Positions 10,359 through 63,140 of a stretch of 64,000 nt of DNA are shown piece after piece. Source of the DNA: Roseovarius nanhaiticus (lineage in GTDB: Bacteria > Pseudomonadota > Alphaproteobacteria > Rhodobacterales > Rhodobacteraceae); contig NZ_FTNV01000001.1 of NCBI RefSeq assembly GCF_900156535.1, forward strand, positions 1,550,001-1,614,000. Reading direction: 5' to 3'. Numbering within the stretch: the stretch's first letter is position 1; each line of letters opens with the position of its first letter. The notes below the pieces were generated by a model. It ran no database searches. It saw only the letters and a list, made by a program, of their open reading frames with translations, and was not told the origin of the DNA. The position numbers and the translations under genes are program-made.

Positions 10359-10458
10359 CAGATGGCGTCCCTCTCAGGTCGAAATGTGACGATAGCCGCG
10401 CCGGAGCATCCGCCGCATGACCAGCATCTGACACCGATCGCGCCGTTTTCAAGCCCAC

Positions 10459-48734: not shown

Positions 48735-50273
48735 TCAAACTTCGCCATCTTCGGTCGGCGTCCAGCGGTGAAGCCAGACCGGTCCCGGATGGGCACCGGG
48801 TGCGCCTTGCAGCGTCACGCGAAGATCCACCGCCTCGGCCCCGTCGCCGGGGGTCAGCAGGAAGGTCACGCGTGCGCCGCGCCCCTCCGGCAGGTCGAAT
48901 ACGCCCGCTCCGGTGATCTGCGCCGGACCTGCCGCAGAGATCAAAGGCGTCACATCCTCGGCGGCCAGACCATCCGGCATATCCAGGTCGATCACGTAGC
49001 GGCGCGTGCCGGGGCGATCATGCTCCTGCCCGCTACGGCTTTGCGCGATACGGACTGCGCCCTCGGCGCCCGGCGCGCTTCGTGTCCAGTCGAGCGTATA
49101 GTCGAAACGATGCTCGCTGCCGGCGGCAATGGGCGCGTCGGGCCGCCAGAACGCGACGATATTATCCATGAATTCCGTATCCGTCGGGATCTCGACCAGC
49201 ATGACGGCGCCCGGACCCCAGTCACCCGTGGGCTGGACCCGCGCCGAAGGCCGGTCGTGATAACGTGCCTCGGTATCCTCATAGTCGTCAAAGCGTCGGG
49301 GCGTCTGGTAGAGGCCGAAGGCCACCGGGCCGTCATCGGCAAAGGCCGAGGTCTGGATTCGGGCGGGATTGCTGATGGGGCGCCACAGATGCTCGCCCGC
49401 GCCGTTGCGGATGTAGAGCATATCGCTGTCATGCACGCGCGGGCGGAAATCGTCCGACACGGCGGCGCGGATCGGCCCCTTGAGATACATCGAGGTAAGT
49501 GGCGCGACGCCGACATCCGTGATCTCGCGCCGTGGCAGGAGGGTGAGCGCGGCGCGCATCGCGGTGTCGACGCCCGGCGTCATCTCCAGCTCCAAATGAC
49601 CGGCAAGCGAGGGGCTGTCGATCACTGCCTCCATGCGGATACGCCCATCCACGGGGCGGTGCAGCCGAAGATGGGTGAATCTGGGAAATTCCTCGGGACC
49701 CGGCCCGCCGGTGCCAAGTGCGACAGCGCGCGCCGACAGTCCATAGACCATCGCCTGCCCGATGGCGCGGAAGTAGCTGGCGCCCTGGACCACCATCACC
49801 TCATCCATCACCTGGGGGTCGTTCAGGGGGTGGCGCAGGCGCACCCCGGAGAAGCCGGCCCCGGGGGATTTCGCCGGGATATCGCTGAAATAGCGCGGCT
49901 CGAACGTGAACAGGCCGGGCGAGAAGGCAATTTCGCCAAAGCCCTCGGCGCGGGGCATCTCGATCGTGACGGGATCGGGAAAGAAGAGGCCGGGGGGCAA
50001 CAGATCCACCTCGTATCCGTCGCCGAGTGGCAGGTTGGCTGCCTCGCCTGCGATGGGTCTTATGCCGCGATAGGCGTCATAATTGAGGCCCGCGAAGGGC
50101 GGCGACAGCGACACCGGATTAGGCTGGTAGGGCTTGGCCGCGAGGGCCCGCGCGGCCTCAAGCAATGAGGCTGGCGCCTCTTCGGCCTGCGCCGATCGTG
50201 CCTGCGGCCAAAGGCCGAGCGCCGCCGCGCCAAGCGCCATGGCCGAGCCGCCAAGGAGCGCGCGGCGCCTCAT
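48735..50273 (-). CDS. opgG: Periplasmic glucan biosynthesis protein OpgG
   Basis: 512 residues with a signal peptide including paired Arg (MRRRALLGGSAMALGAAALG), then the two-domain OpgG fold: NYDAYRGIRP, FFPDPVTIE, VMVVQGASYFRAIGQAMVYGLSARA, and RPISNP. It acts in the periplasm on beta-glucans to branch osmoregulated periplasmic glucans. ATG at 50273 overlaps the opgH stop by 4 bp, so the order is opgH then opgG. Overlap and order are the reverse of E. coli opgGH. Confidence 0.93.
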   Translation of the reverse strand: MRRRALLGGSAMALGAAALGLWPQARSAQAEEAPASLLEAARALAAKPYQPNPVSLSPPFAGLNYDAYRGIRPIAGEAANLPLGDGYEVDLLPPGLFFPDPVTIEMPRAEGFGEIAFSPGLFTFEPRYFSDIPAKSPGAGFSGVRLRHPLNDPQVMDEVMVVQGASYFRAIGQAMVYGLSARAVALGTGGPGPEEFPRFTHLRLHRPVDGRIRMEAVIDSPSLAGHLELEMTPGVDTAMRAALTLLPRREITDVGVAPLTSMYLKGPIRAAVSDDFRPRVHDSDMLYIRNGAGEHLWRPISNPARIQTSAFADDGPVAFGLYQTPRRFDDYEDTEARYHDRPSARVQPTGDWGPGAVMLVEIPTDTEFMDNIVAFWRPDAPIAAGSEHRFDYTLDWTRSAPGAEGAVRIAQSRSGQEHDRPGTRRYVIDLDMPDGLAAEDVTPLISAAGPAQITGAGVFDLPEGRGARVTFLLTPGDGAEAVDLRVTLQGAPGAHPGPVWLHRWTPTEDGEV

Positions 50274-51850
50274 ACGGGCTGCGCGTCCAGTGCGCGCAAG
50301 ATAAGCGGCGCGGCCAGCAAAGGCAGGATCAGCGGCGCAAGCCAGAGCGTCGCACCGCCGTCGGTTTGCAGCGCCAGCGCCAAGAGGGCCGCGCCCGCTG
50401 CCGCCTCGGGCATGCCACGGGGCAGACGCAGACGCGCGGCTGTGTTCGATTTCCACCCGCAATCGCGGCCGAGCAAGATCGAGCCGACCGACGCAGTCTG
50501 GCGAAGCATCATGATCGGCGCGATCACGGTCGACAGAATCAATTCGCCCAGCGACGCGCGCAAAATCACCAGTCTGCGCCGCAATGTGCCTGCGGATCGC
50601 AGCCAGCCCGCAAGCGCGCAGATCTTGGGCGCAAGCAGAACGGCGGCCACCAGCGCGAAAGGAATTGCGCCTGCGACCGGCACCGCGCCCGAGGCAATCA
50701 GCACCACCAGAACCAGCCAGATCGGCGCGGCAAGGTAGCTGAGCGCGCCAGAGGCAAGGTGCAGTCGGCTGATCGGGTGCAGGCCCGGCGTGGCAAGCAT
50801 GCCGATATGTTGCATGTTGCCCTGACACCAGCGGCGATCACGCTTGTGAAACTCGTCCAGCGTCTGTGGCCCGTCCTCGGCGCTGCCGGCCATGTCCGGA
50901 TCCAATTCCACCGCCCAACCGGCGCGCCGGATCCACGCCGCCTCGATGAAGTCATGGCTCAGCACCGGCCCGCCGAAGGGAGCCTTGCCCGGAAGGACAG
51001 GCAGATGCGCCGCCTCGCGAAATGCGGCAACCCGCAAGATGGCGTTGTGACCCCAGTAATTGCTGGAGCGCCCGGCCCAAGCCGCCATGCCGCGCCCGAA
51101 ATTATGCGACATCAGCCGCACGGCAGTGCGCTGATGCTTTCCGAACCGGCTTTGCCCCGGAATAAGGGCCATGCCAGCTTGCAGGAGGCCCGTGCGCGGG
51201 CGCATTTCCATCTGGCGGATCATGCGGCGAATGCGGCTCGCGGACATGCGGCTGTCCGCATCCATGACCAGCATGTAGTCGAATGCGTCGCCGTAGTGAT
51301 GCAGCCAATCGGCGATATTGCCCGGCTTGCGCCCGGTATTCTCGGCGCGGCGGCGGTACTGGATGCGGCCATCGCCGTGCAAGTCCGCCAGCGCGGTCGC
51401 CTCGCGCTCGGCCAGCTCGCCGGCGGGCGTGTCCGACAGGACAAAAATGCGTGTCCGGCAGTCAAGGCCCGCATGCCCGAGGCTGGCACTCAGGTCAGCA
51501 ATGTACCACGCGACCGGTGAAGGATCTTCCTTGCAAAGAGTAATAAGAATGGCAGTCTGCCCTTCCGGCACCCATCCGGCGGGCGGCGGCACCGGACGAG
51601 CGCGCGATTGCGCCAATCCGATCAGGGCAGTCGCAGCGCCACCCGAAATCCACGCACCGCTCAGTGCGGCGAGAGGCAGCGCGATATAACTCATCACGGT
51701 CCAGTCACGGATAGACAGCGCAAAGCTGGCTGTCAGCAGCGCAGTCAGGAGAAGGGTGATGCCAATATATGCAGGCCGCGCCTCGGGCCAGCGAAGCCTC
51801 GGAAGACCCGCCGTTGCGGCAACCCGTGATATCGAATCCGAAAAAGACAT
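50270..51850 (-). CDS. opgH: Glucan glucosyltransferase OpgH
   Basis: 526 residues, GT2-family membrane glucosyltransferase that makes the beta-glucan backbone. Helices near residues 26-95, a cytoplasmic GT-A domain with DADSRM (the DxD-type site), then FEGP-like SHDFIEA and the RRWCQGN motif typical of processive GT2 enzymes. C-terminal helices follow. About 320 residues shorter than E. coli OpgH, as in Rhodobacter; the long N-terminal extension is missing. Co-transcribed with opgG (4-bp overlap). Confidence 0.92.
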   Translation of the reverse strand: MSFSDSISRVAATAGLPRLRWPEARPAYIGITLLLTALLTASFALSIRDWTVMSYIALPLAALSGAWISGGAATALIGLAQSRARPVPPPAGWVPEGQTAILITLCKEDPSPVAWYIADLSASLGHAGLDCRTRIFVLSDTPAGELAEREATALADLHGDGRIQYRRRAENTGRKPGNIADWLHHYGDAFDYMLVMDADSRMSASRIRRMIRQMEMRPRTGLLQAGMALIPGQSRFGKHQRTAVRLMSHNFGRGMAAWAGRSSNYWGHNAILRVAAFREAAHLPVLPGKAPFGGPVLSHDFIEAAWIRRAGWAVELDPDMAGSAEDGPQTLDEFHKRDRRWCQGNMQHIGMLATPGLHPISRLHLASGALSYLAAPIWLVLVVLIASGAVPVAGAIPFALVAAVLLAPKICALAGWLRSAGTLRRRLVILRASLGELILSTVIAPIMMLRQTASVGSILLGRDCGWKSNTAARLRLPRGMPEAAAGAALLALALQTDGGATLWLAPLILPLLAAPLILRALDAQPV

Positions 51851-51947: not shown

Positions 51948-52520
51948 TTAGCCGCCTGCGCTGTCCTTCGGTGACCACATGCGCGAAAAGATGCCATCGC
52001 GGCGTATAAGCCCGTGGTGCGCTGCAGCGAAAATATGCAGTGCCACGACGGCCGTCAGCGCCAAAGCTCCGTAATAATGGACAGTTTTGGCAATTTCAGC
52101 GATCTCGTCCGACCTTGTAACCGGCGATCCTATGCCGAGAGCGTCAAGCGTCTCAATTGGGAAGCCGCCCGCCTTGACGCGAATATAGCCCGCAACAGGC
52201 ATGATCAGCATCAGCGCATACAGAGCTATATGGCTCAGCCCAGCTGCTTTGGCCTGCCATGCGGGCATCTGATCCGGGAGGGGCGGCGGCGGCACGGCAA
52301 ATCGATAGGCGATGCGCACCGCGATCAAAACCAGCAAGAGAACGCCCACATTCTTGTGATAGATGAATAGCGCGTTTTGGAGGCTCCGTGCCAAGCCCTC
52401 CTGCACCATCAGGAACCCGACGGGAATCGTTGACAGGATCAGTAGCGCCATGGACCAGTGGATCACACGAGCCGTGCGGCTATAGGCCGAGTGATGCTGA
52501 ATCGTCGTCTGCGGGCTCAT
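51948..52520 (-). CDS. Cytochrome b561 family protein
   Basis: 190 residues, four membrane helices with haem ligands: ARVIHWSMALLIL, FIYHKNVGVLL, LSHIALYALMLI and VALHIFAAAHHG. Di-haem cytochrome b561 of the bacterial CybB type transfers electrons from quinol, possibly to superoxide. The ATG at 52520 gives the normal N terminus. Divergent from the CDP-alcohol phosphatidyltransferase gene across 166 bp in which I see no clear element. Confidence 0.92.
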   Translation of the reverse strand: MSPQTTIQHHSAYSRTARVIHWSMALLILSTIPVGFLMVQEGLARSLQNALFIYHKNVGVLLLVLIAVRIAYRFAVPPPPLPDQMPAWQAKAAGLSHIALYALMLIMPVAGYIRVKAGGFPIETLDALGIGSPVTRSDEIAEIAKTVHYYGALALTAVVALHIFAAAHHGLIRRDGIFSRMWSPKDSAGG

Positions 52521-52686
52521 GCGCGAGGTTGCTTTCGTTGCCTGAGTGTCGATGATGGCTGACGTAGCGTCGCCGGCCCCGGAATCAAGCCACGCGATGC
52601 CTCCTGCGGCCCCAATCCGCGCGCCCGCCTCAGGCTGGTGTCTGGCGCCACTTGACGGCGACCCCATCGTGCTAAATTCATCTCTC

Positions 52687-53469
52687 ATGACGATTTCGCA
52701 CCCAGACGTGCCGCGCCGCCGGCACCGCCTCCAGCCGCCTTTCAGGCTTGCCTTGGGTGTGGGGCCGGCCTTTGGGCTGCCTCCAGCCCTTTGGCGTTTC
52801 ATAATGGCGGCGCTGATCGGCTGCGCCGGGGCCGCGATCTTGGCCTCGGTTTTGCTGGATGCAGGCGCTCTACCCATTGCTGTTGCGGTCACTGTCTACG
52901 CCGCAGCTGCCATTTTGGCCGGCGCGGGGATGGCGCGGAACTATCCGCATGAGGCGCTTGGCCTCGGCAACCTTGTCACGCTCGGGCGGATGGCACTTGC
53001 CGCGTCGCTGATACCGCCGCTTTTGATGGGGGATGATTTGCAATGGCATGTCTTCGCTCTCGCCTCAATTGCGCTGGCGCTTGACGGGGTGGATGGTTGG
53101 CTGGCACGGCGCCAGGGCCTGACCTCTGAATTTGGCGCGCGTTTCGACATGGAGGTCGACGCCTCGTTGGGCGTGCTCTTGGCGCTCAATGCCTTTGCGG
53201 CGGGTACTGCCGGGATTGCCGTGCTGCTCCTGGCGATGCCGCGTTATGTGTTTGCACTCGCGGGCATCGCCATGCCTTGGCTGGCGCGGCCTCTGCCCGA
53301 GCGCTTTGGGCGCAAGGTCGTCTGCGTCATCCAGATCGGCGTTTTGATCGGCATTCAGCCACCCATTGTCCCGCATGGCATGGCTGCTGCGGCCATAACA
53401 ATCGCGGCGCTGGCGCTGGCGTGGTCTTTCGGACGCGATTGTGTCTGGCTTTGGCGACGCACCGCTTGA
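52687..53469 (+). CDS. CDP-alcohol phosphatidyltransferase family protein
   Basis: 260 residues, six or so membrane helices. The catalytic motif is intact: DGVDGWLARRQ, then GARFDMEVDA, matching D-x2-D-G-x2-A-R-x8-G-x3-D-x3-D. The enzyme transfers a phospho-alcohol from CDP to an acceptor, making phospholipids or related lipids. Acceptor unknown. ATG at 52687. Its stop overlaps the start of the next gene by 4 bp, making a three-gene unit with a sulfatase-superfamily protein and a UPF0104 protein. Confidence 0.9.
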   Translation: MTISHPDVPRRRHRLQPPFRLALGVGPAFGLPPALWRFIMAALIGCAGAAILASVLLDAGALPIAVAVTVYAAAAILAGAGMARNYPHEALGLGNLVTLGRMALAASLIPPLLMGDDLQWHVFALASIALALDGVDGWLARRQGLTSEFGARFDMEVDASLGVLLALNAFAAGTAGIAVLLLAMPRYVFALAGIAMPWLARPLPERFGRKVVCVIQIGVLIGIQPPIVPHGMAAAAITIAALALAWSFGRDCVWLWRRTA

Positions 53470-55145
53470 CTGATTGGGCACGTCCATCGGTCCTGCGCCT
53501 GATCCTGGCTGCCGTGATCTTGCATCTGGCGCTGATCCAGCCCAATCATCCGGCGGCGATGACATGGCAGGCACTGTGGCTTTTCCCTCTGGAACTGCCG
53601 GTGATCATGCTTGCCTTGATCGCCCTGAGCGGAAAATGGGCCATGCTGCTGCGGGTCTTGCTGACAGCTTGCCTGACGTTGGTTACCGTCCTTAAGACCG
53701 CCGATTTCGGCATGTTCACGGCCCTTGCGCGCGGGTTCAATCCGGTGGCCGATCTTGTGCTGATCGACGCGGGAATGCGCCTTTTGGCAGGCTCCATCGG
53801 AATGATACCAGCGCTTCTTGCCGCTCTGGCGGCGGTGCTGGCAGTTTGCGCAATCGGCTGGCTTATCTGGTGGGCGACGGGTGTTCTTGCCAAGGTGACG
53901 CTGCCGCGCCGTCGCGCGGCGGGTGCGGGCGCTGCGCTATTCGCCGTTCTGGCCATCGCCGAGATTGGGATGGCATTGGGTCGCTGGAGCCTGCCGGTCG
54001 CGCCGCCGGGCGCCGCGTTCACCGCGCGGGTGGGATATGAGCGCGTGCAACTCGTGCGCCAGACCATAACCGATTTGCGGGCCTTCCGCATCGCCGCGCG
54101 GCAAGATCCATTTGCCGAGCGCACGGGCCTGCTGGACCGCCTGACCGACGAAAGCGCGAACGCCGCCAACCGCGATGTGCTGGTCGTCTTCGTCGAGAGC
54201 TATGGGCGCACCAGTCTTGAGACGCCCTTCTACGCGGGCACCCATCGCGCCACCTTGCTTGCGGCCGAGGCACGGCTGCGCGATGCAGGTTATGCCATGG
54301 CATCGGGCCTGCTGGTGGCACCCACGCGGGGCGGTCAAAGCTGGCTGTCGCACGCGACCTTCGCCAATGGCCTTTGGATCAATGATCAGACGCGCTACGG
54401 CGCGATGCTGGCCTCGGGGCGCGAGACGCTTTTTCACATCGCGGCGCGCTCGGGCTTTCGCACGGCGGCGGTGATGCCGCAGATCACGCTCGATTGGCCG
54501 GAATCCGAGGCAATGGGCTTTGATACCGTATTGGCGGCGGCCGACCTTGGGTATCGGGGCGCACCCTTCAATTGGGTGACGATGCCCGATCAGTTCACCT
54601 TCACGGCGCTCGACCGCCTCGTGCGCGCGCGCGAGGAGGGTCCCGTCTTTGCGCAGCTGGCGCTGGGATCGTCGCACGCGCCCTGGACGCCAGTGCCGGA
54701 TCTGGTGCCTTGGGACGAGGTCGGCGACGGGCGCATCTTCAACGATATGGCGGCGGCGGGCGATCCGCCCGAAATGGTGTGGCGCGACCGGGACAGGGTG
54801 CGCGAACAGTATCGCAAGGCCATCAACTATGCGCTGCGCACGGTTTTCGACTACGCGGCGCTCCATGCGGACGCCCCGCCTTTGATGATCATCCTCGGCG
54901 ATCATCAAGCGGCGGATTTCGTCGCGCTCGAGGACCGTCCGGACGTGCCGATCCACATCATCGGCCCGCCAGATCTGGTCGCGCAGCTGAAGGGGTGGGG
55001 CTGGCAAGAGGGGCTGATCCCGGATCCGGACGTGGCACCGATGGCCATGGACCGCATGCGCGATCTGCTGATCGAGACCTTTACGACGCCCGCCGCGCTA
55101 CCGCCCGAGGTGCTGCCCGTCTCGCCGCGGGAGGCCGTGGAGTGA
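53466..55145 (+). CDS. Membrane-anchored sulfatase/alkaline-phosphatase-superfamily protein
   Basis: 559 residues: an N-terminal set of about five helices (residues 5-180), then a periplasmic phosphatase-superfamily domain. Metal-site motifs are VVFVESYGRTS, PTRGGQSWLSHATF, GSSHAPWTP and LGDHQAADF, where the first Glu and the later Asp-His would hold metal. Architecture matches LtaS/EptA-like phospho-transferases that move phospho-alcohols onto lipids or glycans. No ATG in range: the TTG at 53466 overlaps the preceding stop (TTGA), the choice made. Product unknown. Confidence 0.82.
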   Translation: MTDWARPSVLRLILAAVILHLALIQPNHPAAMTWQALWLFPLELPVIMLALIALSGKWAMLLRVLLTACLTLVTVLKTADFGMFTALARGFNPVADLVLIDAGMRLLAGSIGMIPALLAALAAVLAVCAIGWLIWWATGVLAKVTLPRRRAAGAGAALFAVLAIAEIGMALGRWSLPVAPPGAAFTARVGYERVQLVRQTITDLRAFRIAARQDPFAERTGLLDRLTDESANAANRDVLVVFVESYGRTSLETPFYAGTHRATLLAAEARLRDAGYAMASGLLVAPTRGGQSWLSHATFANGLWINDQTRYGAMLASGRETLFHIAARSGFRTAAVMPQITLDWPESEAMGFDTVLAAADLGYRGAPFNWVTMPDQFTFTALDRLVRAREEGPVFAQLALGSSHAPWTPVPDLVPWDEVGDGRIFNDMAAAGDPPEMVWRDRDRVREQYRKAINYALRTVFDYAALHADAPPLMIILGDHQAADFVALEDRPDVPIHIIGPPDLVAQLKGWGWQEGLIPDPDVAPMAMDRMRDLLIETFTTPAALPPEVLPVSPREAVE

Positions 55146-56077
55146 GGCCGCGCTGGCTCTCACCCGGCCTGATGCGCGCGGGGCAATTCGCGCTGGCGGC
55201 GCTGATGCTGGCGCTTCTTTGGCGCGCCCTTGACGGGGCGGAGGCGGCGCGCAGCCTCGCGGGCGCGGATCCGCTCTGGCTGTGCGCGGCGCTGGCGGCG
55301 CTGACGCTGCAAACGGCGCTTTCGGCCCTGCGCTGGCGGCTGACGGCGGCGCAACTGGGCATCCGGCTGGGCCTGGGGGCCGCGCTGCGCGAATATTATC
55401 TGGGCCAGGCGCTGAATCTGTCGCTGCCCGGCGGTGTCGTCGGCGATGCGGGCCGCGCGGTGCGCGCACGTCAGCAGGCCGGGCTGCTGGCCTCGGGCCA
55501 GGCGGTGGTGTTCGAGCGTCTGGCCGGGCAGGCGGGGCTCTTCGTCATCACGGCGGGGGCCTTTGCGGTGACGCTGGCCGCGCCCGGCGGCCTGGAATGG
55601 CCCGCGCGGCTTATCCCGCCCGTTGCGATCTTCATACTGATTGGGCTGTGCCTGCCCCTCGTCCTTTATGTGCTGACGCAGGTTCCGGGCCGGATCGGCG
55701 CGGGGGCCAGATCGGTCTGGCACGGGATGCAGCGCGCGGTGCTGGCGCGCGGCGTTATCCTGCCGCAAACGCTCCTCAGCCTGGGGACCGCGCTCAGCAA
55801 TCTGGCGGCCTTCGCGTTTTGCGCGCTGGCGGTGGGGCATGGCCTGCCGCTGGCCGCCGTGCTGGCCTTCGTGCCACTGATCCTTCTTACCATGCTGATC
55901 CCGCTGACGATCAGCGGTTGGGGCCTGCGCGAGGGGGCGGCGGCGGCGCTCTTTCCGCTGGCGGGCGGCGCGGCAAGCGGGGGGCTGGCGGCCAGCGTCG
56001 CCTTCGGACTGATGATGATCGTCGCGGCCCTGCCGGGGCTGATTTTCGTGGTCGGGCGCCGCCGCGCGGCGGCGTGA
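55142..56077 (+). CDS. UPF0104 / flippase-like lysylphosphatidylglycerol-synthase TM protein
   Basis: 311 residues, eight or more membrane helices, UPF0104 family. SLPGGVVGDAGRAVRARQQAG is the family signature, with the C-terminal LTISGWGLREGAAAALFPL. Members include the membrane half of MprF-type synthases and proteins proposed as lipid flippases. Start is GTG at 55142, 4-bp overlap (GTGA) with the preceding stop. Last gene of the three-gene unit; it ends 4 bp from the convergent RibD-C gene. Substrate unknown. Confidence 0.85.
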   Translation: MRPRWLSPGLMRAGQFALAALMLALLWRALDGAEAARSLAGADPLWLCAALAALTLQTALSALRWRLTAAQLGIRLGLGAALREYYLGQALNLSLPGGVVGDAGRAVRARQQAGLLASGQAVVFERLAGQAGLFVITAGAFAVTLAAPGGLEWPARLIPPVAIFILIGLCLPLVLYVLTQVPGRIGAGARSVWHGMQRAVLARGVILPQTLLSLGTALSNLAAFAFCALAVGHGLPLAAVLAFVPLILLTMLIPLTISGWGLREGAAAALFPLAGGAASGGLAASVAFGLMMIVAALPGLIFVVGRRRAAA

Positions 56078-56081
56078 CGTC

Positions 56082-56891
56082 TCAGGCTGCGCCGTGCACG
56101 GGCGCGCGCGCCTCCAGTGCCCGTGCGGTCAGCGCGCAATCGAACACCACGTCCGAGCCCAAGGAATAGACGCAGCAATCGGGCCGGATCGCATGCGCGA
56201 GCGTCTCGCTGGGGCTGGGCAGGGTCAGGCCCTGCGGGCCGCCCCCGATGAGCAACGGCGCGATGGCGACATGCAGATGCGCCAGCAGCCCCGCCTCCAG
56301 AAAGCGGGCGATGGTTATGCCGCCGCCCTCGATCATCAATGTGCGCAGCCCTGCCGCGTTCAGCGCCTCGATGATGCGCGCCGGGGGCAGGCTGCCGTCC
56401 GTTGCGTCAATGCGGATCACCTCCACACCCTTGGGGCGCGCCATCCCAACCGCTTGCACAACGATGCGCCGCGCGCCGTTGTCCTGCAGGACCGGCGCGT
56501 CGTTCGGCAGCCGCCCGCGCGGGTCGATCACGATGCGTGCGGGATCGGCGCCGTCGCACATGCGCACGGTCAGGCGGGGCGTATCGTGCAGCGCGGTGCG
56601 CACCCCGATCACGACACCGTCGACCAGCGCCCGCATCCGGTGCAGATGCGCCAGCCCGTCCGGCCCCGACACGTCGCGTGCGTCACCCGTCACAGTCGCA
56701 ATGCGCCCATCCAGCGACTGCCCGATCTGCGCCACGCTCAGCGGGCCGAGGTCGCGCCGTGCGAGCGGACCATAGAGCGCGAGCGCGCTGCGCTCGTCCG
56801 CGCTCCAATCGCCGCAGCAGGTGCAGGATCGGCCCGCCTTGACGGCCAGCAACCGCTCCCACACCTTTGCCGTGACGTTGATCCCCTGCAT
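56082..56891 (-). CDS. RibD C-terminal-domain (pyrimidine/dihydrofolate reductase-like) protein
   Basis: 269 residues. RibD-C/DHFR-like fold: VAQIGQSLDGRIATVTGD, then LVDGVVIGVRTALHDTPRLTVR, RIVIDPRGRLP, and the C-terminal EGGGITIARFLEAGLLAHLHVAIAPLLIGGGP. It lacks the deaminase domain of RibD, so it should only reduce. N-terminal ~48 residues hold CTCC (Cys23, 25, 26), not part of the fold and possibly a metal site. NADPH-dependent reduction of a pyrimidine or pteridine is likely. It is 128 bp beyond the methyltransferase gene on the same strand, and an AAGGGG site precedes its ATG. Confidence 0.85.
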   Translation of the reverse strand: MQGINVTAKVWERLLAVKAGRSCTCCGDWSADERSALALYGPLARRDLGPLSVAQIGQSLDGRIATVTGDARDVSGPDGLAHLHRMRALVDGVVIGVRTALHDTPRLTVRMCDGADPARIVIDPRGRLPNDAPVLQDNGARRIVVQAVGMARPKGVEVIRIDATDGSLPPARIIEALNAAGLRTLMIEGGGITIARFLEAGLLAHLHVAIAPLLIGGGPQGLTLPSPSETLAHAIRPDCCVYSLGSDVVFDCALTARALEARAPVHGAA

Positions 56892-57019
56892 CAGATGTCC
56901 CCTTGCGCCGTGTCACGTGGCAGGGCCAGCATATCACCATGGCCGATCATGCATGCCGCATCACGCGCAGCGGCGACGCGCGCCGCGCCCCATTCGGCGG
57001 CGCCCTCTGCGCCCGCCTC

Positions 57020-57676
57020 CTAGGCGGCGGCGGCGATTCCGCGCACCAGTTCCGCCTGCAGCGGTGCCTGCTCTGGGCCCAGTTGCCAGTCGCTGCGCGC
57101 GCGGATCACATCGAACCCGGCCTCGGCGAATACCGCCGCAGCCGTCGGCGCCGCATCGGGGCCAAGCGCCGGGCCGATGCCCTTGTCGCCCCTCTGGTGG
57201 CGGTTGAACGCCTCGGTGACGGGCGCATCGCGGGCCTCCTCGGGCTGCCATTCCATGCGGCCATCGTAGGAAAGCGCGGCATAGAACGGAACGCCCAACC
57301 GGGCCGCAAAGGCGCGCAGCCACGCTTCCGGCATCAGATCAAGGAGGGCCGAGGCCGTGACAAGCGTCACGCCCTCCAGCGGCAAGCTGTCCAGATCGGC
57401 CAGATTACAGGCATGGGTCTCGGCCCGCGCGCCGCCATCGCGTGCGGCCTTCGCGGCGCGGTCAAGCAGATCGGGATCATTGTCCACCAGCCGCCATAGC
57501 GTGCTGCGCGGCAGGTGCGGCGCCAGCGCGCGCACGGTCGAGCCTGTGCCGCAGCCCAGATCGAGGATGACGGGCGCCGGGCCAGCCGCCACCGCCGCCT
57601 GCCGCAAGAGGCCCGCGTCGCGCGCCGCGTGGTCGGCAGGCTCGCGCAGGGCAAGCCAGTCGGCGGAAAACCCCAT
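57020..57676 (-). CDS. Class I SAM-dependent methyltransferase
   Basis: 218 residues. SAM-binding motif I is VILDLGCGTGS (residues 37-47), with motif II-like LVDNDPDLL and post-motif HACNLADLDSLP. Acceptor unknown. Start at 57676, one base past the stop of the PTPS-like gene, so translationally linked. It is thought to modify a small molecule made by the neighbouring GTP-derived pathway enzymes; that is inference from operon context only. Confidence 0.85.
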   Translation of the reverse strand: MGFSADWLALREPADHAARDAGLLRQAAVAAGPAPVILDLGCGTGSTVRALAPHLPRSTLWRLVDNDPDLLDRAAKAARDGGARAETHACNLADLDSLPLEGVTLVTASALLDLMPEAWLRAFAARLGVPFYAALSYDGRMEWQPEEARDAPVTEAFNRHQRGDKGIGPALGPDAAPTAAAVFAEAGFDVIRARSDWQLGPEQAPLQAELVRGIAAAA

Positions 57677-57677
57677 T

Positions 57678-58073
57678 CTAGATCTCGCCCTCGTACCAGG
57701 CGCGGGCGACATGGCTTTCGTGCAGCAGGATGCGCAGCTTCTTGACGCGGCCTTCATCCTTTAGCCCGCCCTTGCGAACGGTGCCCGCCATGGCGTCGAA
57801 GATATGCTTGCACAGGAACTCTGTCGTGGTGAACTTGCCCTTGAATTCAGGCACCTCGTCGAGGTTCTTGTAGCGCAGCGGGCCCAGCACGTCGGTCAGC
57901 GCCTCGGTGGCGAGGCCGATATCCACGACCAGCCCGTGATCGTCGATCTCCTCGGTGTAGAAGGCGGCATCGACGGTGAATGTGGCGCCATGCATGCCCT
58001 GGGCGGGGCCGAACACGGGCGAGGGCAGGGAATGGCCGATCATGATGTGATCTCGGACTTCGACGGCGAACAT
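57678..58073 (-). CDS. 6-pyruvoyltetrahydropterin synthase/QueD homologue lacking catalytic residues
   Basis: 131-residue T-fold protein of PTPS/QueD type. HIMIGHSL supplies His14 and GMHGATF His28, as in the zinc-binding sites of QueD, while the third ligand position (HGH) reads HGA. The catalytic Cys four residues before the His is Ala24. The Asp-His dyad (LDHHYLN in QueD) reads LRYKNLD. Only a C-terminal Glu in LLHESHV is kept. It is unlikely to be a normal QueD or PTPS. 8 bp from the dehydrogenase gene, 1 bp from the methyltransferase gene. Confidence 0.8.
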   Translation of the reverse strand: MFAVEVRDHIMIGHSLPSPVFGPAQGMHGATFTVDAAFYTEEIDDHGLVVDIGLATEALTDVLGPLRYKNLDEVPEFKGKFTTTEFLCKHIFDAMAGTVRKGGLKDEGRVKKLRILLHESHVARAWYEGEI

Positions 58074-58082
58074 GATGTCTCC

Positions 58083-59036
58083 TTAACTTCGGGAATAGGT
58101 GATGCGGTGGCAAAGCGTGGCGGGATCGCCGAGGATATCGCCATAGGCGCCCGGCAGATCGTCAAACGCCGTCTCGCCCGAGATCAGCGCATCAAGCGCG
58201 GGATCGCACAAGAGGTCCAGCGCCTTGGCCATGCGGCGCCCGTAGCTCCAGCGCGGGGCGCGGGCGGGGGGCAGATGGCCTACCTGGCTGCTGATCAGGC
58301 GCAGGCGGCGGCTGTGAAACGCGCCGCCGAGCGGCACGGACGTGTCGCCCGCGCCGTGCCAACTGGCCTCGACCACGGCGGCATCCTGCCCGGCGCAGCC
58401 AAGCGCGGTGGCAAGCCCTGTGCCGCTGGCGGTGGCGTGGATGACCAGATCGCACCCATCGGGCGCATCATCCGGCGCGGCAAAGTCGCACCCCATTCTA
58501 CCGGCCAGCGCGGCGCGGCCTGGATTGATGTCCACCAGCGTCACGTCGGTGCCGGGGATGCGGGCCGCGAGGTAACCCGCCAGCGCGCCGATCACGCCCG
58601 CGCCGATCACGGCGATCCGGTCGCCTGGCGCAGCAGCGCCATCCCACAGGATGTTCAGCGCGGTCTCCATATTCGCGCCGAGGATCGCGCGCGCGGGGGG
58701 CAGGCCATCGGGCAGGGGCGTCAGCATTTCCGCAGGCATGCGGAACTGCGTCTGGTGCGGATGAAGCGCAAAGACGTCCCGCCCCGAATGCGCCCCCTCG
58801 CGGGCGCGCCCCACGGCGCAATAGCCGTATTTGACCGGAAAGGTAAAATCGCCCTCCTGCGCGGGTGCGCGCATCCGCGCGGCCTCCGATGCGGGCACGC
58901 GTCCTTCAAAAACCAGGCGCTCGGTCCCGCGGCTGATGCCGGAATAAAGCGTATCGACCAGAACGCCCGTGCCAATATCGGCATCGCGCAGCTCGGCCCG
59001 CGACGGGGCGGCGCACCAAAGCGCGCGCGCATTCAT
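58083..59036 (-). CDS. BchC-like medium-chain dehydrogenase
   Basis: 317 residues. Rossmann motif VIGAGVIGALAG and an N-terminal GISRGTERLVFEGRVP resembling BchC, the bacteriochlorophyllide hydroxyethyl dehydrogenase. MKYGYCAVG and VFALHPHQTQ follow. The Cys/His residues that bind catalytic zinc in alcohol dehydrogenases are not evident. Its stop is 8 bp before the PTPS-like ATG, and its ATG overlaps the ribA stop by 4 bp. It could oxidise a side-chain hydroxyl of the pathway intermediate. Confidence 0.83.
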   Translation of the reverse strand: MNARALWCAAPSRAELRDADIGTGVLVDTLYSGISRGTERLVFEGRVPASEAARMRAPAQEGDFTFPVKYGYCAVGRAREGAHSGRDVFALHPHQTQFRMPAEMLTPLPDGLPPARAILGANMETALNILWDGAAAPGDRIAVIGAGVIGALAGYLAARIPGTDVTLVDINPGRAALAGRMGCDFAAPDDAPDGCDLVIHATASGTGLATALGCAGQDAAVVEASWHGAGDTSVPLGGAFHSRRLRLISSQVGHLPPARAPRWSYGRRMAKALDLLCDPALDALISGETAFDDLPGAYGDILGDPATLCHRITYSRS

Positions 59037-60232
59037 GTCAGCAGATGGCCGGATTTGGCCGCCTTGGTGGCAAGGTAATTTGCGTTTACCGCGTTACCGC
59101 CGACCTTGAGCGGTACACGCTCGGTCACGTCGATCCCTTGAGAGGCCAGAATGGCGATCTTGGCGGGGTTGTTGGTCATCAGGCGCACGCGCGAGATGCC
59201 CAGCCAATGCAGGATGTTGCCGCCCACGCGAAAGTCCCGTTCGTCATCGTCGAAACCCAGCCAGTGATTGGCCTCGACCGTATCAAGACCGGCCTCCTGC
59301 AGCGCATAAGCCCGCATCTTGTTGGCCAGGCCGATGCCGCGACCCTCCTGATTGAGATAGAGAATCACGCCGCCGCTGCCAGAGGCCATCGTCGCCATGG
59401 CCGTGCGCAACTGGGGGCCGCAATCGCATTTGAGGCTGCTTAGAACGTCCCCGGTAAAACAGGCAGAGTGCAGGCGCACGGTGACGGGCTGGGTAAAGTC
59501 GGGCGTTCCGATCTCGATCGCATAATGCTCGACCCCGCCGTCATCCGGGCGAAAGACGTGGACGCGTCCCGCCTGGCTGGCATCCATCGGCAGGTTTGCC
59601 GCGCTGACCAAGGTCTGTGGCGCGCCATCCTCCAGCGCATCCATGATGGCGGGCGTCTCCATCATGCTCAGCCCAAGGCGCAATGCATCGCCCGCCGCGT
59701 CCTGCCGGGGCAGGAGGACCGCCGCGGGCAACACATGGGCCGACTTGGCCAGCGCAAGGGCCACTGCATGAAGCGGGCCGCCCGCGTTGAGGCGCATGGG
59801 CGCCGAGCGCAGCTTGCCAGCCGGCAGTCCCTCACCGGCAAGCGAGGCAAGCCATTCCAGATCGGCCCCCGCCGGAATATCGAGTGTGACGACGCCGCCT
59901 GACTCTTCCGCTGGCAGGTTATCGGGCAGGTCCATCCCCAGCGCCTCGGCGCGGTTTCGTGTCAGCACCAGCTCTACCGCGCCCGGCGCGGCCATGGCGC
60001 GCAGCGCTTCGAGGCGTTCGTCATTGACCGTTTCGGCGAAAGCGACGAGGGCACCGTCCGACGCCGCCTCGCCGGATGTGAGCGCCACGGGCAAGCCCAA
60101 TTTGAGATCACCGCGAACACGCATCAGGCGCTCGACCGCGCGCGGCGTAAGGCCTTGGGCGGGCGCGTTGCCTTTCTGGGTGGTCCCAAGGGCAGGCACG
60201 GCTTGGGCGGAGGCAGTCCGGGATAAACGCAA
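59033..60232 (-). CDS. ribA: GTP cyclohydrolase II
   Basis: About 399 residues as drawn. The C-terminal GCHII domain is complete: HSACFTGDVLSSLKCDCGPQLR with the zinc Cys residues, LNQEGRGIGLANKMRAY, and MTNNPAKIAIL. The N-terminal half resembles a degenerate RibB-like domain, as in other Rhodobacteraceae RibA. GCHII converts GTP to the diaminopyrimidine used for riboflavin. Start uncertain: TTG at 60232 is used, GTG at 60199 and ATG at 60124 are alternatives. It is the first gene of the operon and may be the sole housekeeping RibA of the cell. Confidence 0.88.
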   Translation of the reverse strand: MRLSRTASAQAVPALGTTQKGNAPAQGLTPRAVERLMRVRGDLKLGLPVALTSGEAASDGALVAFAETVNDERLEALRAMAAPGAVELVLTRNRAEALGMDLPDNLPAEESGGVVTLDIPAGADLEWLASLAGEGLPAGKLRSAPMRLNAGGPLHAVALALAKSAHVLPAAVLLPRQDAAGDALRLGLSMMETPAIMDALEDGAPQTLVSAANLPMDASQAGRVHVFRPDDGGVEHYAIEIGTPDFTQPVTVRLHSACFTGDVLSSLKCDCGPQLRTAMATMASGSGGVILYLNQEGRGIGLANKMRAYALQEAGLDTVEANHWLGFDDDERDFRVGGNILHWLGISRVRLMTNNPAKIAILASQGIDVTERVPLKVGGNAVNANYLATKAAKSGHLLT

Positions 60233-60317: not shown

Positions 60318-60358
60318 CAGATGCGCCTTGCCTGCACCACCGCCGCAGGGCGCATCTG
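60318..60358. promoter_or_regulatory. Long hairpin between ribA and FkbM methyltransferase
   Basis: Perfect 10-bp arms (CAGATGCGCC at 60318-60327, GGCGCATCTG at 60349-60358) with a 21-nt loop. It is in the divergent 185-bp region, 60 bp before the FkbM ATG, and may sit in its leader. It does not match an FMN riboswitch. Confidence 0.4.
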
Positions 60359-60417
60359 CGCTGGACAAGCACGGCGGCGCGCTATTTCTATGGCGTCAAA
60401 CGACAAGGGATGCGTGC

Positions 60418-61152
60418 ATGGGCGGATGGTTGGGATTTTTGCGGTCGTTGGTGATCTATCATAACCCGGCATCATTGCGCGCATGGCGCCGTTTCTACCG
60501 CGATCTTCTGGCGCCGGGCGATCTGGTCTTTGACGTGGGCGCGCATATGGGCACGCGGGCGCGGGCCATGCGGCGGGCCGGGGCCCGCGTCGTCGCGCTG
60601 GAGCCGCAGGCGCCCTTCGCGGGCTTTTTGCGCCGCACCCTGCCACGTGACATCACCCTGATCGAGGCGGCGGCGGGGCGCAGCGATACCGAGGCCGAGA
60701 TGGCCGTCTCCTCGCGCCATCCCACAGTATCATCGCTGCGCACCGAATTCGTCGAGGGCGCGGGCGCCGCGCCCGGCTTCGGCCATGTGAAATGGGATCG
60801 GCGGCAGCGGGTGCGCATGGTCACACTCGATGGGCTGATCGCGCAGCACGGGCGCCCGCGCTATGTGAAAATCGACGTGGAGGGATTTGAGGTCGAGGTG
60901 CTGGGGGGGCTGAGTGCGCCTGTCCAGATCGTCTCGGCGGAGTATCTGCCCGCGTTTCCGGAAATGACCCATGCGGTGATCGACCGGCTGGCCGAGTTGG
61001 GCGATTACCGTTTCAATCCGGTTGCGGGCGAGACGGGCGGGTTTCTCTGGCCCGACTGGCGCAGTGCTGACGCGGCGCGCGACTGGCTAGACGGACTGGC
61101 GCCAAGTGCCGGCTCAGGCGATCTTTTCGCGCGGCTGGAGGTGCTGGAATAG
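60418..61152 (+). CDS. FkbM family methyltransferase
   Basis: 244 residues. SAM motif VFDVGAHMGTRA (residues 37-48), then VVALEPQAPFAGFL, and the FkbM signature YVKIDVEGFEVEVLGGL. Members O-methylate sugars or polyketides. Start at 60418 has AAGGGA 9 bp upstream; a longer frame from 60328 is not conserved. Divergent from ribA. Its acceptor is unknown. Confidence 0.85.
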   Translation: MGGWLGFLRSLVIYHNPASLRAWRRFYRDLLAPGDLVFDVGAHMGTRARAMRRAGARVVALEPQAPFAGFLRRTLPRDITLIEAAAGRSDTEAEMAVSSRHPTVSSLRTEFVEGAGAAPGFGHVKWDRRQRVRMVTLDGLIAQHGRPRYVKIDVEGFEVEVLGGLSAPVQIVSAEYLPAFPEMTHAVIDRLAELGDYRFNPVAGETGGFLWPDWRSADAARDWLDGLAPSAGSGDLFARLEVLE

Positions 61153-61164
61153 CCCGCGCTTGGT

Positions 61165-61947
61165 TTATGCGTTGCGAATGATGCCTGCGAAAGCGCCAAA
61201 TAGCTGCGGTGCGGCGGTGATGACCGATCCGCTCTCTTCTGGCCGCTCCGCGGCGCTCCATCCCTCAACCTGCGCGCCCGACTGGCGCAGGATCACAAGG
61301 CCCGCCGCGATATCCCAAGGCTGCAAGCGCCGCTCCCAAAAGCCGTCGAGCCGCCCCGCCGCCACATAGGCCAGATCCAGCGCCGCCGCCCCCATCCGCC
61401 GCACGCCCGCGCACTGGGGCATGAGTCGCGCGATATCGGCGGCGTGATCGTCGATATGCGCCATGGTGCCAAATGGAATACCGGTGCCGAAGAGAGCAGG
61501 CGCAAGCGCCGCCGTCTCGGCGGGCCTGATCGGGACGCCGTTGAGGCGCGCGGTATCGTCCAGCCGGGCGGAAAAGGTTTCCTGCCGGACCGGATCGTGA
61601 ACCACACCGACGCTGAGCGTGCCCGCCTCCTCCAGCGCGATGGAGACAGCGAAATGCCCGATGCCGCGCAGGAAATTCGTGGTGCCGTCGAGCGGATCGA
61701 CGATCCAGCGCCGCGCGCCGGACGCCGCCTCGGCGCCGGTTTCCTCGCCCAGCCATGCATCCTCGGGCCGCGCCGCGCGCAAGCGGGCGCGCAGATGCCG
61801 CTCTGCCTCCATATCCGCCTTGGACACGAAATCGCCGGCGCGTTTGTGCGTGATTCTCAAATCTGCGCGCGCGCGCCAATGTGTCATCAGGATGTCGCCC
61901 GCCTCATGCGCGAGGGTGATGGCCAGGTCGAGGTCTTCGGCGCTCAT
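61165..61947 (-). CDS. Inositol-monophosphatase family enzyme
   Basis: 260 residues. Mg-binding motifs: GEE (67-69), DPLDGT (84-89), and WDIAAG near the C terminus, with VSKADMEAERHL. Hydrolyses a sugar phosphate, inositol phosphate or 3'(2'),5'-bisphosphate nucleotide; which is not readable. It is convergent with the FkbM gene (12-bp gap) and overlaps the glycosyltransferase stop by 4 bp, so the two are coupled. Confidence 0.9.
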   Translation of the reverse strand: MSAEDLDLAITLAHEAGDILMTHWRARADLRITHKRAGDFVSKADMEAERHLRARLRAARPEDAWLGEETGAEAASGARRWIVDPLDGTTNFLRGIGHFAVSIALEEAGTLSVGVVHDPVRQETFSARLDDTARLNGVPIRPAETAALAPALFGTGIPFGTMAHIDDHAADIARLMPQCAGVRRMGAAALDLAYVAAGRLDGFWERRLQPWDIAAGLVILRQSGAQVEGWSAAERPEESGSVITAAPQLFGAFAGIIRNA

Positions 61948-63053
61948 CGGTGCTCCTCCAGCGCGCGGGTCAGGATGCGTCCCACGGCGCGCGCGGCATC
62001 GTCCCAGCCGGGCAGCGCCGCGCCCACGCGGGCGGCCTCGGCGGCCATGTCGGCATAGGCCCGCACGTCGCTCAGCATGCTGCGCAGTGCGCCTGCGAAG
62101 GCATGCGCATCCTCGGGCGGCACCAGCCGTCCGGCGCCCGGGGGCACGGTGCCCGGCACGGCACCTGCGGTTGTCGCGGCGATGGGCAGCCCGTGAATGA
62201 GCGCCTCGTCAAAAACGATCCCGTAACCCTCGTATCGCGTGGCGAGGGCAAAAATATGCGCGCTGGCATAGAGCGCGTCGAGCTCGCTCCGCGGCACCCG
62301 CCCGGCCAGCGTGATCCGCGCGCCAAGGCCCGCCGCCTCGATCTGGCGCGCAAGGGCGGCGTCATGGCCCGGCTCCCACGGGGCGCCGACGATGACCGCG
62401 CGCCAAGGCAGATCCGCGATCTGCGCCAGCGCAGCGATCAGCACGTCATGGCCCTTGCGCGGATGCAGGATGCCAACCGACAGGATCAGGGGCGGGCCGT
62501 CCTTGGCCTTGGCGCGCGCAGGCACCCTGACCGCATCGGGGCGCCCGGGCCGGATGACTGTGACGCGCGCCGCTGGCACGGCGTAATTTGCCACCAACAC
62601 CTCCTTGATATGGGGGCTGGGCACCAGGATATGCGCCGCGCGCTCAAGATTGGCGCGCTCCAGCGCGCGCAGGCGCTGGGCCTCGGGCGCGGGCAGGCCG
62701 CTTTCATGGGCGAGCGGGTGATGCACCAGCGCCACCAGCGGCGCGCGCAGAGCGTCCAGTGCGCCCGTGTCCATCGCCCCGAGGGCCAGCCCGTCGATCA
62801 TCAGCGCGCTGTCTTGTGGCACGGCGGCCAGTTGCGCCGCCGCCTCGGCCATCTCGGCGCCACTTGGAAAGGGAAAGCCGCCGGGCAGGGCGATGTGTTC
62901 GGTCCGGTGGCCGATTGCGCGCAGCGCCTCCAGCAGGCGGCGGTCGTAATGATAGCCGCCCGTGGGCGATGTCAGATCGCCGGGAATGGCGAAGGCGGCT
63001 TTGCAGGCGCTCGCCGAATAAGCTGGGCTGTTCTGAGGCCGATCGGCGGGCAT
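61944..63053 (-). CDS. GT4-family glycosyltransferase
   Basis: 369 residues, GT-B fold. N-terminal acceptor domain with GGYHYDRRLLEALRAIGH; C-terminal donor domain with LILSVGILHPRKGHDVLIAAL, RVPRSELDALYASAHIFALATRYEGYGIVFDEALIHGLP (the E-x7-E motif), then AGRLVPPEDAHAFA. Start at 63053 (ATG with AAGGA 8 bp upstream) preferred to 63089. Donor and acceptor unknown. With the adjacent phosphatase and the FkbM methyltransferase it suggests glycoside formation. Confidence 0.88.
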   Translation of the reverse strand: MPADRPQNSPAYSASACKAAFAIPGDLTSPTGGYHYDRRLLEALRAIGHRTEHIALPGGFPFPSGAEMAEAAAQLAAVPQDSALMIDGLALGAMDTGALDALRAPLVALVHHPLAHESGLPAPEAQRLRALERANLERAAHILVPSPHIKEVLVANYAVPAARVTVIRPGRPDAVRVPARAKAKDGPPLILSVGILHPRKGHDVLIAALAQIADLPWRAVIVGAPWEPGHDAALARQIEAAGLGARITLAGRVPRSELDALYASAHIFALATRYEGYGIVFDEALIHGLPIAATTAGAVPGTVPPGAGRLVPPEDAHAFAGALRSMLSDVRAYADMAAEAARVGAALPGWDDAARAVGRILTRALEEHR

Positions 63054-63140
63054 GGTGGTGTCCTTGGCAGGCTCGGTATGTCCGGACATGTCTTAGCGCC
63101 AGACGCAGCGGCGGCAACGGCCAGTTCTGCGTGAGGAACC

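Follow-up and report, generated by a model that had tools for sequence, protein, structure and literature searches.

A gene cluster centered on a second GTP cyclohydrolase II gene in the window (the whole 64,000-nucleotide stretch of DNA that was analyzed) probably, if with considerable doubt, encodes a dedicated second GTP pathway. As judged from sequence, this pathway would be separate from those for riboflavin, folate, and queuosine, and it would lead to a diaminopyrimidine or pterin that carries sugar and methyl groups and is probably associated with the membrane. The preliminary description of this DNA had proposed that a modified pterin or pyrimidine is made here. The gene set is compatible with that proposal, and no such product was found in the open-licence papers searched. 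To our knowledge, no product or activity has been assigned to this gene set. As far as searched, its wide distribution, its lipid and glycan partners, and an in-frame TAG in the methyltransferase gene of the window strain are new.

Organization of the gene cluster

The cluster is an island of genes that spans ~51.9-63.1 kb of the window and encloses the run of five leftward genes which had been described as an operon (Table 1). The order and spacing of these five genes are confirmed on the minus strand, where the RibA and dehydrogenase genes overlap by 4 bp, a 9-bp gap separates the dehydrogenase and PTPS genes, and 1 bp separates the PTPS and methyltransferase genes. The genes are thus real, but the limit at five does not hold, since the cluster extends further on both sides; the preliminary description included neither the stop codon in the methyltransferase gene nor the glycosyl, lipid, and flippase-like genes. 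The osmoregulated glucan genes mdoG-mdoH adjoin the cluster in the window. A promoter and terminator scan gave a signal no better than that of shuffled sequence. A riboswitch or tRNA context was ruled out by the lack of any Rfam match at the gathering threshold and of any tRNA in the window, and a phage origin was rejected, as none of the 11 viral-contig stretches that matched a pattern proved to be a relative.

Table 1. Genes and features of the cluster, in window coordinates.
Feature	Position	Strand	Remarks
GT4 glycosyltransferase	61944..63089	-	weak matches to EPS EpsE and MshA models
Inositol-monophosphatase-family (IMPase) phosphatase	61165..61947	-	PF00459; 4-bp overlap with GT4
FkbM-family methyltransferase	60328..61152	+	PF05050; divergent from RibA2
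RibA2, GTP cyclohydrolase II	59033..60232	-	PF00925, 1.9e-55
MDR dehydrogenase, apparently zinc-less	58083..59036	-	BchC-like by weak match only
PTPS-fold protein, SCO6650 type	57678..58073	-	lacks HGH/Cys active site
Class I SAM methyltransferase, frame as ended by TAG	57020..57676	-	PF13649
In-frame TAG (57022-57020) and continuing methyltransferase frame to TGA (56893-56891)	56891..57022	-	
Stand-alone RibD C-terminal reductase (RibD-C2)	56082..56891	-	PF01872, 2.9e-33
LPG-synthase-TM flippase-like membrane protein	55172..56077	+	PF03706
Membrane sulfatase/alkaline-phosphatase superfamily protein	53277..55145	+	PF00884; start uncertain, 53277-53514
CDP-alcohol phosphotransferase	52546..53469	+	PF01066; start uncertain
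Cytochrome b561 family protein	51948..52520	-	PF01292; start is a candidate

RibA2 and RibD-C2 are distinct from the housekeeping riboflavin enzymes

RibA2 belongs to the GTP cyclohydrolase II family by its PF00925 match, and its motifs, previously described as intact, do retain the three zinc cysteines and the equivalent of Tyr105, which was located by sequence alignment; we take these residues to play their usual roles in GTP cyclohydrolase II. Its TTG start is one of several candidates in an ORF that is open to position 60646. RibD-C2 is a 269-aa RibD-C-type reductase for which PF01872 is the sole domain match; a domain search found no N-terminal deaminase domain, so it is not a bifunctional riboflavin RibD. 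Its best solved relatives are a 2,5-diamino-6-ribosylaminopyrimidinone 5'-phosphate reductase and an archaeal-type enzyme of similar name.

The preliminary description had asked whether any genome holds another ribA. A second copy is indeed present on C4, along with a full 377-aa RibD and a canonical QueD elsewhere in the same genome, and the RibA2, RibD-C2, and PTPS genes of the cluster are therefore extra copies. In a RibA tree, for which 18 of 102 RibA ORFs had been dropped beforehand (score <200, short, duplicate, or L001), the window RibA groups with RibAs from the cluster regions of Rhodobacter ruber, Paracoccus haematequi, and two Palleronia (99/86) and falls outside a 24-row, all-housekeeping clade that contains its own genome's C4 copy. 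Exactly two PF00925 copies are found in 16 of the 17 cluster-lacking genomes examined in the genus and family, the remaining one (G205) having three, while genomes G000, G195, and G201 have three copies each, the third one inside the cluster (G191 and G207 were left out of this count). Given the additional RibA, RibD, and QueD and the placement in the tree, we reject the simpler view that this is the housekeeping ribA with unrelated neighbors. It is likewise very improbable that RibA2 and RibD-C2 only boost riboflavin supply beside unrelated genes. RibA2 does hold the GTP cyclohydrolase II residues that were checked, but that explanation is at odds with the separate RibA and full RibD, with the missing deaminase domain match in RibD-C2, and with the conserved non-riboflavin neighbors described below.

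The PTPS-fold protein and the dehydrogenase

The PTPS-like protein had been called a PTPS/QueD homolog. It has the PTPS fold, and it shares with QueD and PTPS-I, II, and III (COG0720) a retained Glu, presumably the ring-binding residue; by motif, it is not QueD. An HGH motif is absent from all 29 aligned rows of the family, and Ala (A24) stands where the catalytic Cys is expected. None of the 29 rows contains CxxxHGH, CxxxxxHGH, or ExxHGH, the motifs of PTPS-I, II, and III given in PMC5041015, which rules out these identities. The QueD encoded elsewhere in the genome, in contrast, carries CARLHGH. The protein is instead of the SCO6650 type, with the 3d7j fold and the FGPAQxLHGAT motif, although the window protein reads FGPAQGMHGAT, with M in place of L. 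It is 53% identical to Streptomyces coelicolor SCO6650 (PDB 3d7j; TM 0.97), which also lacks HGH and which, in what was found, is a solved structure that is an orphan as to activity. Plasmid records annotate this marker gene as '6-carboxytetrahydropterin synthase' (queuosine).

PTPS and GTP cyclohydrolase I have a common T-fold, and pterin reductase activity is possible among relatives of the RibD-C fold. The cluster could on these grounds encode a split GTP cyclohydrolase I route, in which the RibA2 diaminopyrimidine would undergo an Amadori step and ring closure on the PTPS-fold protein to yield dihydroneopterin phosphate, and RibD-C2, with its DHFR-like fold, would provide a tetrahydropterin cofactor that is later glycosylated. 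Foldseek lists GTP cyclohydrolase IB and dihydroneopterin aldolase among the weak matches to the PTPS-like protein. However, the solved structures closest to RibD-C2 are by name those of ribose-side-chain reductases, no residue support was found for the Amadori step, and the lipid and flippase genes would be left unexplained; we regard this route as unlikely.

The likeness of the dehydrogenase to BchC, also proposed earlier, is a loose one: it scores only 38.5 bits against TIGR01202, for which the cut-off is 291, and a bacteriochlorophyllide dehydrogenase function is rejected on that basis. Its AlphaFold model has an MDR fold (pLDDT 94.3). The family alignment conserves SRGTE, PHQ, and KYGY and no Cys at ≥90%, and the protein appears from its sequence to be an MDR dehydrogenase without zinc.

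The methyltransferase gene is interrupted in the window strain

The methyltransferase motifs had been described as intact. The SAM motif is present, but the gene is interrupted by the in-frame TAG, which removes a 42-residue tail resembling that of other members of the family. Because the frame continues past this codon to a TGA that overlaps the RibD-C start, the 128-bp "gap" before RibD-C is the remainder of the methyltransferase gene. The same TAG is found in the genome sequence of the window strain, and in view of this stop codon the pathway may be decaying there. Elsewhere, the methyltransferase is present in 22 of 23 PTPS-bearing alphaproteobacterial genomes and in none of 167 others; the sole exception has its PTPS gene at a contig edge.

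The gene set is widespread and can include lipid and glycan genes

Relatives of the PTPS protein turned up in at least 589 stretches of a one-genome-per-species collection, and largely the same genes occur together across Pseudomonadota and also in Actinomycetota, so the set is not limited to this strain. What recurs is the set; the order is variable. Neighbors were counted in full-flank loci of three samples (class/genus, best-80, and phylum), with every match counted, loci with <7.5 kb on one side dropped (5/28, 24/80, and 2/19, respectively), and L262, a distant PTPS relative, left out. In that order of samples, the PTPS gene is accompanied by the dehydrogenase in 23/23, 55/56, and 17/17 loci, by the methyltransferase in 23/23, 55/56, and 16/17, and by GT4 in 23/23, 48/56, and 17/17; in the other 8 best-80 loci, GT4 was sought in the flanks and not found. 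Fewer than half of the loci have RibA close to PTPS (10/23, 25/56, and 6/17), so the rest must rely on a different copy or do without. As a control, 20 windows of 19 kb were placed arbitrarily in ten of the same genomes, and none of 15 cluster families gave a match there (E 1e-5). The PTPS gene of a Rhodomicrobium (L112) stands without the cluster, which weighs against the proposed pathway. Carriers were counted without the weak PTPS matches of G063 and, in a further search, without matches of E >1e-50. Reaction-center genes (PF00124) are carried by 7 of the 23 PTPS-bearing genomes of the class and by 9 of its 167 others (Fisher p 0.0009, uncorrected for relatedness and genome size), and this association with phototrophy is no more than a lead.

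Among the lipid and glycan genes, the CDP-alcohol phosphotransferase lies beside PTPS in 9/23, 26/56, and 11/17 loci of the same samples, the flippase-like gene in 3/23, 19/56, and 10/17, and the IMPase in 3/23, 12/56, and 0/17. None of these three is universal, and the frequent absence of the lipid genes, like that of RibA, speaks against the dedicated pathway. The phosphotransferase family conserves the DGxDGxxxR...GxxxDxExD columns among 26 members, and the sulfatase-like family conserves ESYG and GDH columns among 30. That most of these genes vary among loci, and that mdoG-mdoH lie next door in the window, would suit a pairing of two unrelated modules that travel together, one an envelope glycan and lipid island (GT4, GT2, FkbM, CDP-alcohol phosphotransferase, sulfatase, and flippase) and the other a GTP-derived small-molecule module. 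Yet GT4 is almost as constant as the dehydrogenase and methyltransferase, and clusters of Microbacterium, S. fungicidicus, and S. globisporus retain both the CDP-alcohol phosphotransferase and the flippase-like gene together with PTPS and the dehydrogenase. Such a pairing is on these grounds rather improbable. No RibA was seen at the Microbacterium locus.

Clusters on Streptomyces plasmids

The same core is found on two Streptomyces plasmids, S. fungicidicus L149 and S. globisporus L291, which share with the window the CDP-alcohol phosphotransferase, dehydrogenase, PTPS, GT4, methyltransferase, RibA, and flippase-like gene, the last of which thus also occurs in actinobacterial clusters. RibD-C is present in L291 and lacking in L149, and four of six PTPS genes on Streptomyces plasmids stand without the cluster, a further point against the pathway. 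In both Streptomyces clusters, Met occupies the Tyr105 position of RibA, and a neighboring gene matches the creatininase family strongly (614 and 340 bits against a model built from the first), whereas all 49 proteobacterial cluster-region RibAs of the tree set have Tyr. Weak creatininase matches (52-90 bits) occur in nine other loci, six of which have a RibA, always with Tyr, so the pairing of Met with creatininase rests on two clusters. The S. fungicidicus creatininase scores higher as MftE (141 bits) than as the FAPy deformylase ArfB (37 bits), both below cut-offs, and an ArfB identity is ruled out at 37 of the 180 bits set for NF033501. SCO6655 is, we presume, the likely S. coelicolor counterpart of the plasmid GTP cyclohydrolase II. 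According to PMC2853524, the expression of SCO6655 in S. coelicolor correlates negatively with the predicted flux of riboflavin, a weak argument against a riboflavin supply role, but so does that of another GTP cyclohydrolase II, SCO2687.

Proposed pathway and its significance

Family and residues support a first step in which RibA2 would open GTP to 2,5-diamino-6-ribosylaminopyrimidinone 5'-phosphate; the chemistry beyond it we infer. RibD-C2 would then reduce the ribose to a ribityl chain, or reduce a dihydropterin, and the 2-amino group would stay because the enzyme lacks a deaminase. The IMPase may take off the phosphate. The PTPS-fold protein, which lacks a Zn/Cys site, would bind the ring, and together with the MDR dehydrogenase it would close or oxidize the side chain; GT4 and the methyltransferases would decorate the product. 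The CDP-alcohol phosphotransferase, flippase-like, and sulfatase-like proteins could then join it to a phosphodiester of lipid type and either transfer or modify it across the membrane. In Streptomyces, with Met for Tyr in RibA, the first step would end at a formyl intermediate that the creatininase-family amidohydrolase finishes. Natural-product pathways of the toxoflavin and 8-azaguanine type likewise divert GTP cyclohydrolase II and a RibD-like enzyme from riboflavin; we know of none with a PTPS homolog or lipid genes.

The gene set probably makes a GTP-derived molecule for which our searches found no structure. The cluster would place the orphan structure 3d7j and the extra GTP cyclohydrolase II copies in a context, and producers can be sought with its PTPS-like and methyltransferase genes as markers. 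More tentatively, and with low probability, the product could be a "lipopterin", a glycosylated pterin or ribityl-diaminopyrimidine anchored in the membrane through a CDP-alcohol-type phosphodiester, flipped, and redox- or light-active in concert with cytochrome b561 and, where a genome has it, YceI. Were the product linked to a lipid, bacterial membranes would gain a headgroup with redox or light activity, and a lipopterin would be a bacterial lipid class that spans Alpha- and Gammaproteobacteria and Actinomycetota.

Gene content of the cluster

The five genes lie on the minus strand with the location and spacing that the preliminary description had claimed for them, and Pfam matches bear out GTP cyclohydrolase II, PTPS, SAM methyltransferase and RibD-C; the zinc-binding-dehydrogenase match of the dehydrogenase is weak and falls under the cut-off. 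The methyltransferase frame reaches an in-frame TAG, past which a 42-residue tail like those of other family members continues in frame, and the extended frame closes at a TGA overlapping the RibD-C ATG. The tail pattern is matched in 116 of 126 methyltransferase loci; the other ten comprise seven with a variant tail (judged by eye), a divergent locus (L046), a locus at a contig edge (L117) and the window. With one contig-edge locus set aside, the window alone among the 126 has a stop ahead of the tail. Given this TAG and the family-like tail beyond it, either the window copy is defective, or its stop is read through, or the TAG is a sequencing error. The osmoregulated-glucan genes mdoG and mdoH adjoin the island, and an MdoH-like GT2 also adjoins the cluster in many other loci.

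Positions in the window, and counted PTPS loci with each family nearby
Feature	Window position	Class/genus	Best-80	Phylum
RibA	59033-60232	10/23	25/56	6/17
Dehydrogenase	58083-59036	23/23	55/56	17/17
PTPS	57678-58073			
Methyltransferase (to TAG)	57020-57676	23/23	55/56	16/17
In-frame TAG	57022-57020			
RibD-C	56082-56891	20/23	36/56	15/17
mdoG and mdoH	48735-51850			
GT4		23/23	48/56	17/17
CDP-alcohol phosphotransferase		9/23	26/56	11/17
Flippase-like		3/23	19/56	10/17
Sulfatase		6/23	22/56	4/17
FkbM		5/23	27/56	5/17
GT2		7/23	21/56	8/17
Cytochrome b561		5/23	23/56	4/17
IMPase		3/23	12/56	0/17
YceI		9/23	4/56	4/17
Creatininase		1/23	2/56	4/17

Distribution and neighbourhood

Among 190 class genomes, 23 carry a relative of the PTPS protein, not counting one further match at 7.5e-4. 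So do 6 of the 23 additional genomes from the genus and, at E < 1e-54, 27 of 398 phylum genomes, where the next match is at 1e-15. They also occur in at least 589 genome_contigs stretches, of which the best 80 were used. Taking the 190 class genomes of both searches as one sample (the listed handles agree), the methyltransferase is present in 22, every one PTPS-bearing; in the sole PTPS carrier without it, PTPS lies at contig bases 147-539. Photosynthetic reaction-centre genes, present in the window's genome, are commoner in carriers in the class sample (7/23 vs 9/167 others).

Neighbours were sought with HMMs built from the loci and run on six-frame open segments. A PTPS locus was included if it scored above 60 bits and had 7.5 kb or more of flanking sequence in each direction (23 of 28 class/genus, 56 of 80 best-80 and 17 of 19 phylum loci), and every hit around it was counted. 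The counts come from HMMs built partly from the loci on which they were run and from sets that share some records (L058 and L069 are apparently one contig), and the best-80 set represents nearest relatives, not an even sample. As a control, the 15 cluster families gave no hits in 20 arbitrarily placed 19-kb windows from ten carrier genomes. YceI-family genes recur by the cluster (L040, L042, L045, L053, L058-L062 and others). In Palleronia sp. LCG004 (L147, 7113-17509) the cluster is plasmid-borne and about 1.4 kb separates its RibD gene from repA, consistent with horizontal spread.

RibA and the housekeeping copies

In the window's genome, which comprises 3.70 Mb on 14 contigs, PF00925 matches three times and PF01872 and PF01242 twice each; it does hold another ribA, a point that the preliminary description had proposed to check. 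Its non-cluster RibD is 377 aa with an N-terminal part that reads by eye as deaminase-like, and its non-cluster QueD carries CARLHGH. The 17 relatives without the cluster that were compared (15 from the genus and 2 from the family) carry two PF00925 copies each, except for G205 with three. Of seven genus genomes with the cluster, the window's, G195 and G201 carry a third copy, which lies inside the cluster, and G210, G197, G208 and G194 carry two.

A RibA tree was built from 84 rows (49 cluster-region, 35 other) after removal of 18 of 102 ORFs. The cluster/other label changes 4 times on this tree, compared with a mean of 27.1 when shuffled, and 0 of 500 shuffles were as low. The closest grouping of the window RibA (99/86) joins it to the RibAs of Rhodobacter ruber, Paracoccus haematequi and two Palleronia, and the C4 RibA of the same genome sits in a separate clade of 24 rows, all housekeeping. 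The simpler view, that ribA is the housekeeping gene with unrelated neighbours, does not survive the other RibA, RibD and QueD copies and the position of the window RibA outside the housekeeping clade. The remaining cluster-region RibAs are placed elsewhere, a few among housekeeping copies (e.g. locus L049), and at least three label changes are forced; this scatter indicates that RibA may have been recruited into the cluster more than once.

PTPS protein and dehydrogenase

The AlphaFold model of the PTPS protein (pLDDT 96.9) has SCO6650 (3d7j) as its top match (TM 0.97, 53% identity), and the next QueD/PTPS structures reach TM 0.81 at most. According to Spoonamore and coworkers in 2008, SCO6650 reportedly lacks zinc and the catalytic triad. 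An alignment of 29 relatives keeps H14, FGPA, HGAT, D51, NLD, E85 and E119. The PTPS motifs given in an excerpt of PMC5041015 (CxxxHGH, CxxxxxHGH and ExxHGH) all contain HGH, whereas HGH was found in 0 of the 29 aligned rows. The same excerpt calls PTPS-V function unclear, and an excerpt of PMC3223725 adds nothing on the SCO6650-type subfamily. The dehydrogenase model has a generic MDR fold, and its alignment holds no Cys conserved at 90% or more.

Clusters in Actinomycetota

Eight of 20 plasmid records with a PTPS match are actinobacterial. The cluster lies on plasmids of S. fungicidicus, S. globisporus and Microbacterium (the last stretch without RibA), and an Arthrobacter plasmid has a partial cluster of dehydrogenase, PTPS and GT4. 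Four Streptomyces plasmids (L150, L293, L294 and L295; about 10001-10396) carry an SCO6650-type PTPS without the cluster and with cupin genes nearby, and three of the four also list a MEKHLA-domain gene near it. Both RibA-bearing Streptomyces clusters have Met at the Tyr105 position of GCH II and a creatininase-family gene nearby; Tyr occupies this position in 49/49 proteobacterial cluster-region RibAs of the tree set. In 2008 Spoonamore and Bandarian reportedly described a Met/Tyr switch at this position that determines whether S. coelicolor GCH II homologues give the formylated or the deformylated product.

From gene numbering alone, we take SCO6652 to be a cluster member. In an excerpt of PMC3610822 the values 0.8, 4.3 and 4.1 are listed for this hypothetical protein. 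In an excerpt of PMC2853524, expression of SCO6655 and the other GCH II, SCO2687, is opposite to predicted riboflavin flux.

Predicted function and significance

The GTP cyclohydrolase II activity of RibA2, the cluster copy, is a well-supported prediction from family and residues; every later step is a putative assignment from protein families. The cluster copy RibD-C2 is without a deaminase domain, which suggests that the 2-amino group is retained, as in pterins. The CDP-alcohol phosphotransferase, whose Asp motif is conserved, together with the flippase-like protein and the sulfatase-superfamily membrane protein, suggests that the product meets lipid or crosses a membrane. The cluster is real, conserved and not housekeeping. 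Pieces of the system were already known in Streptomyces; added here are its wide spread, its lipid and glycan partners, and the Met-creatininase pairing.
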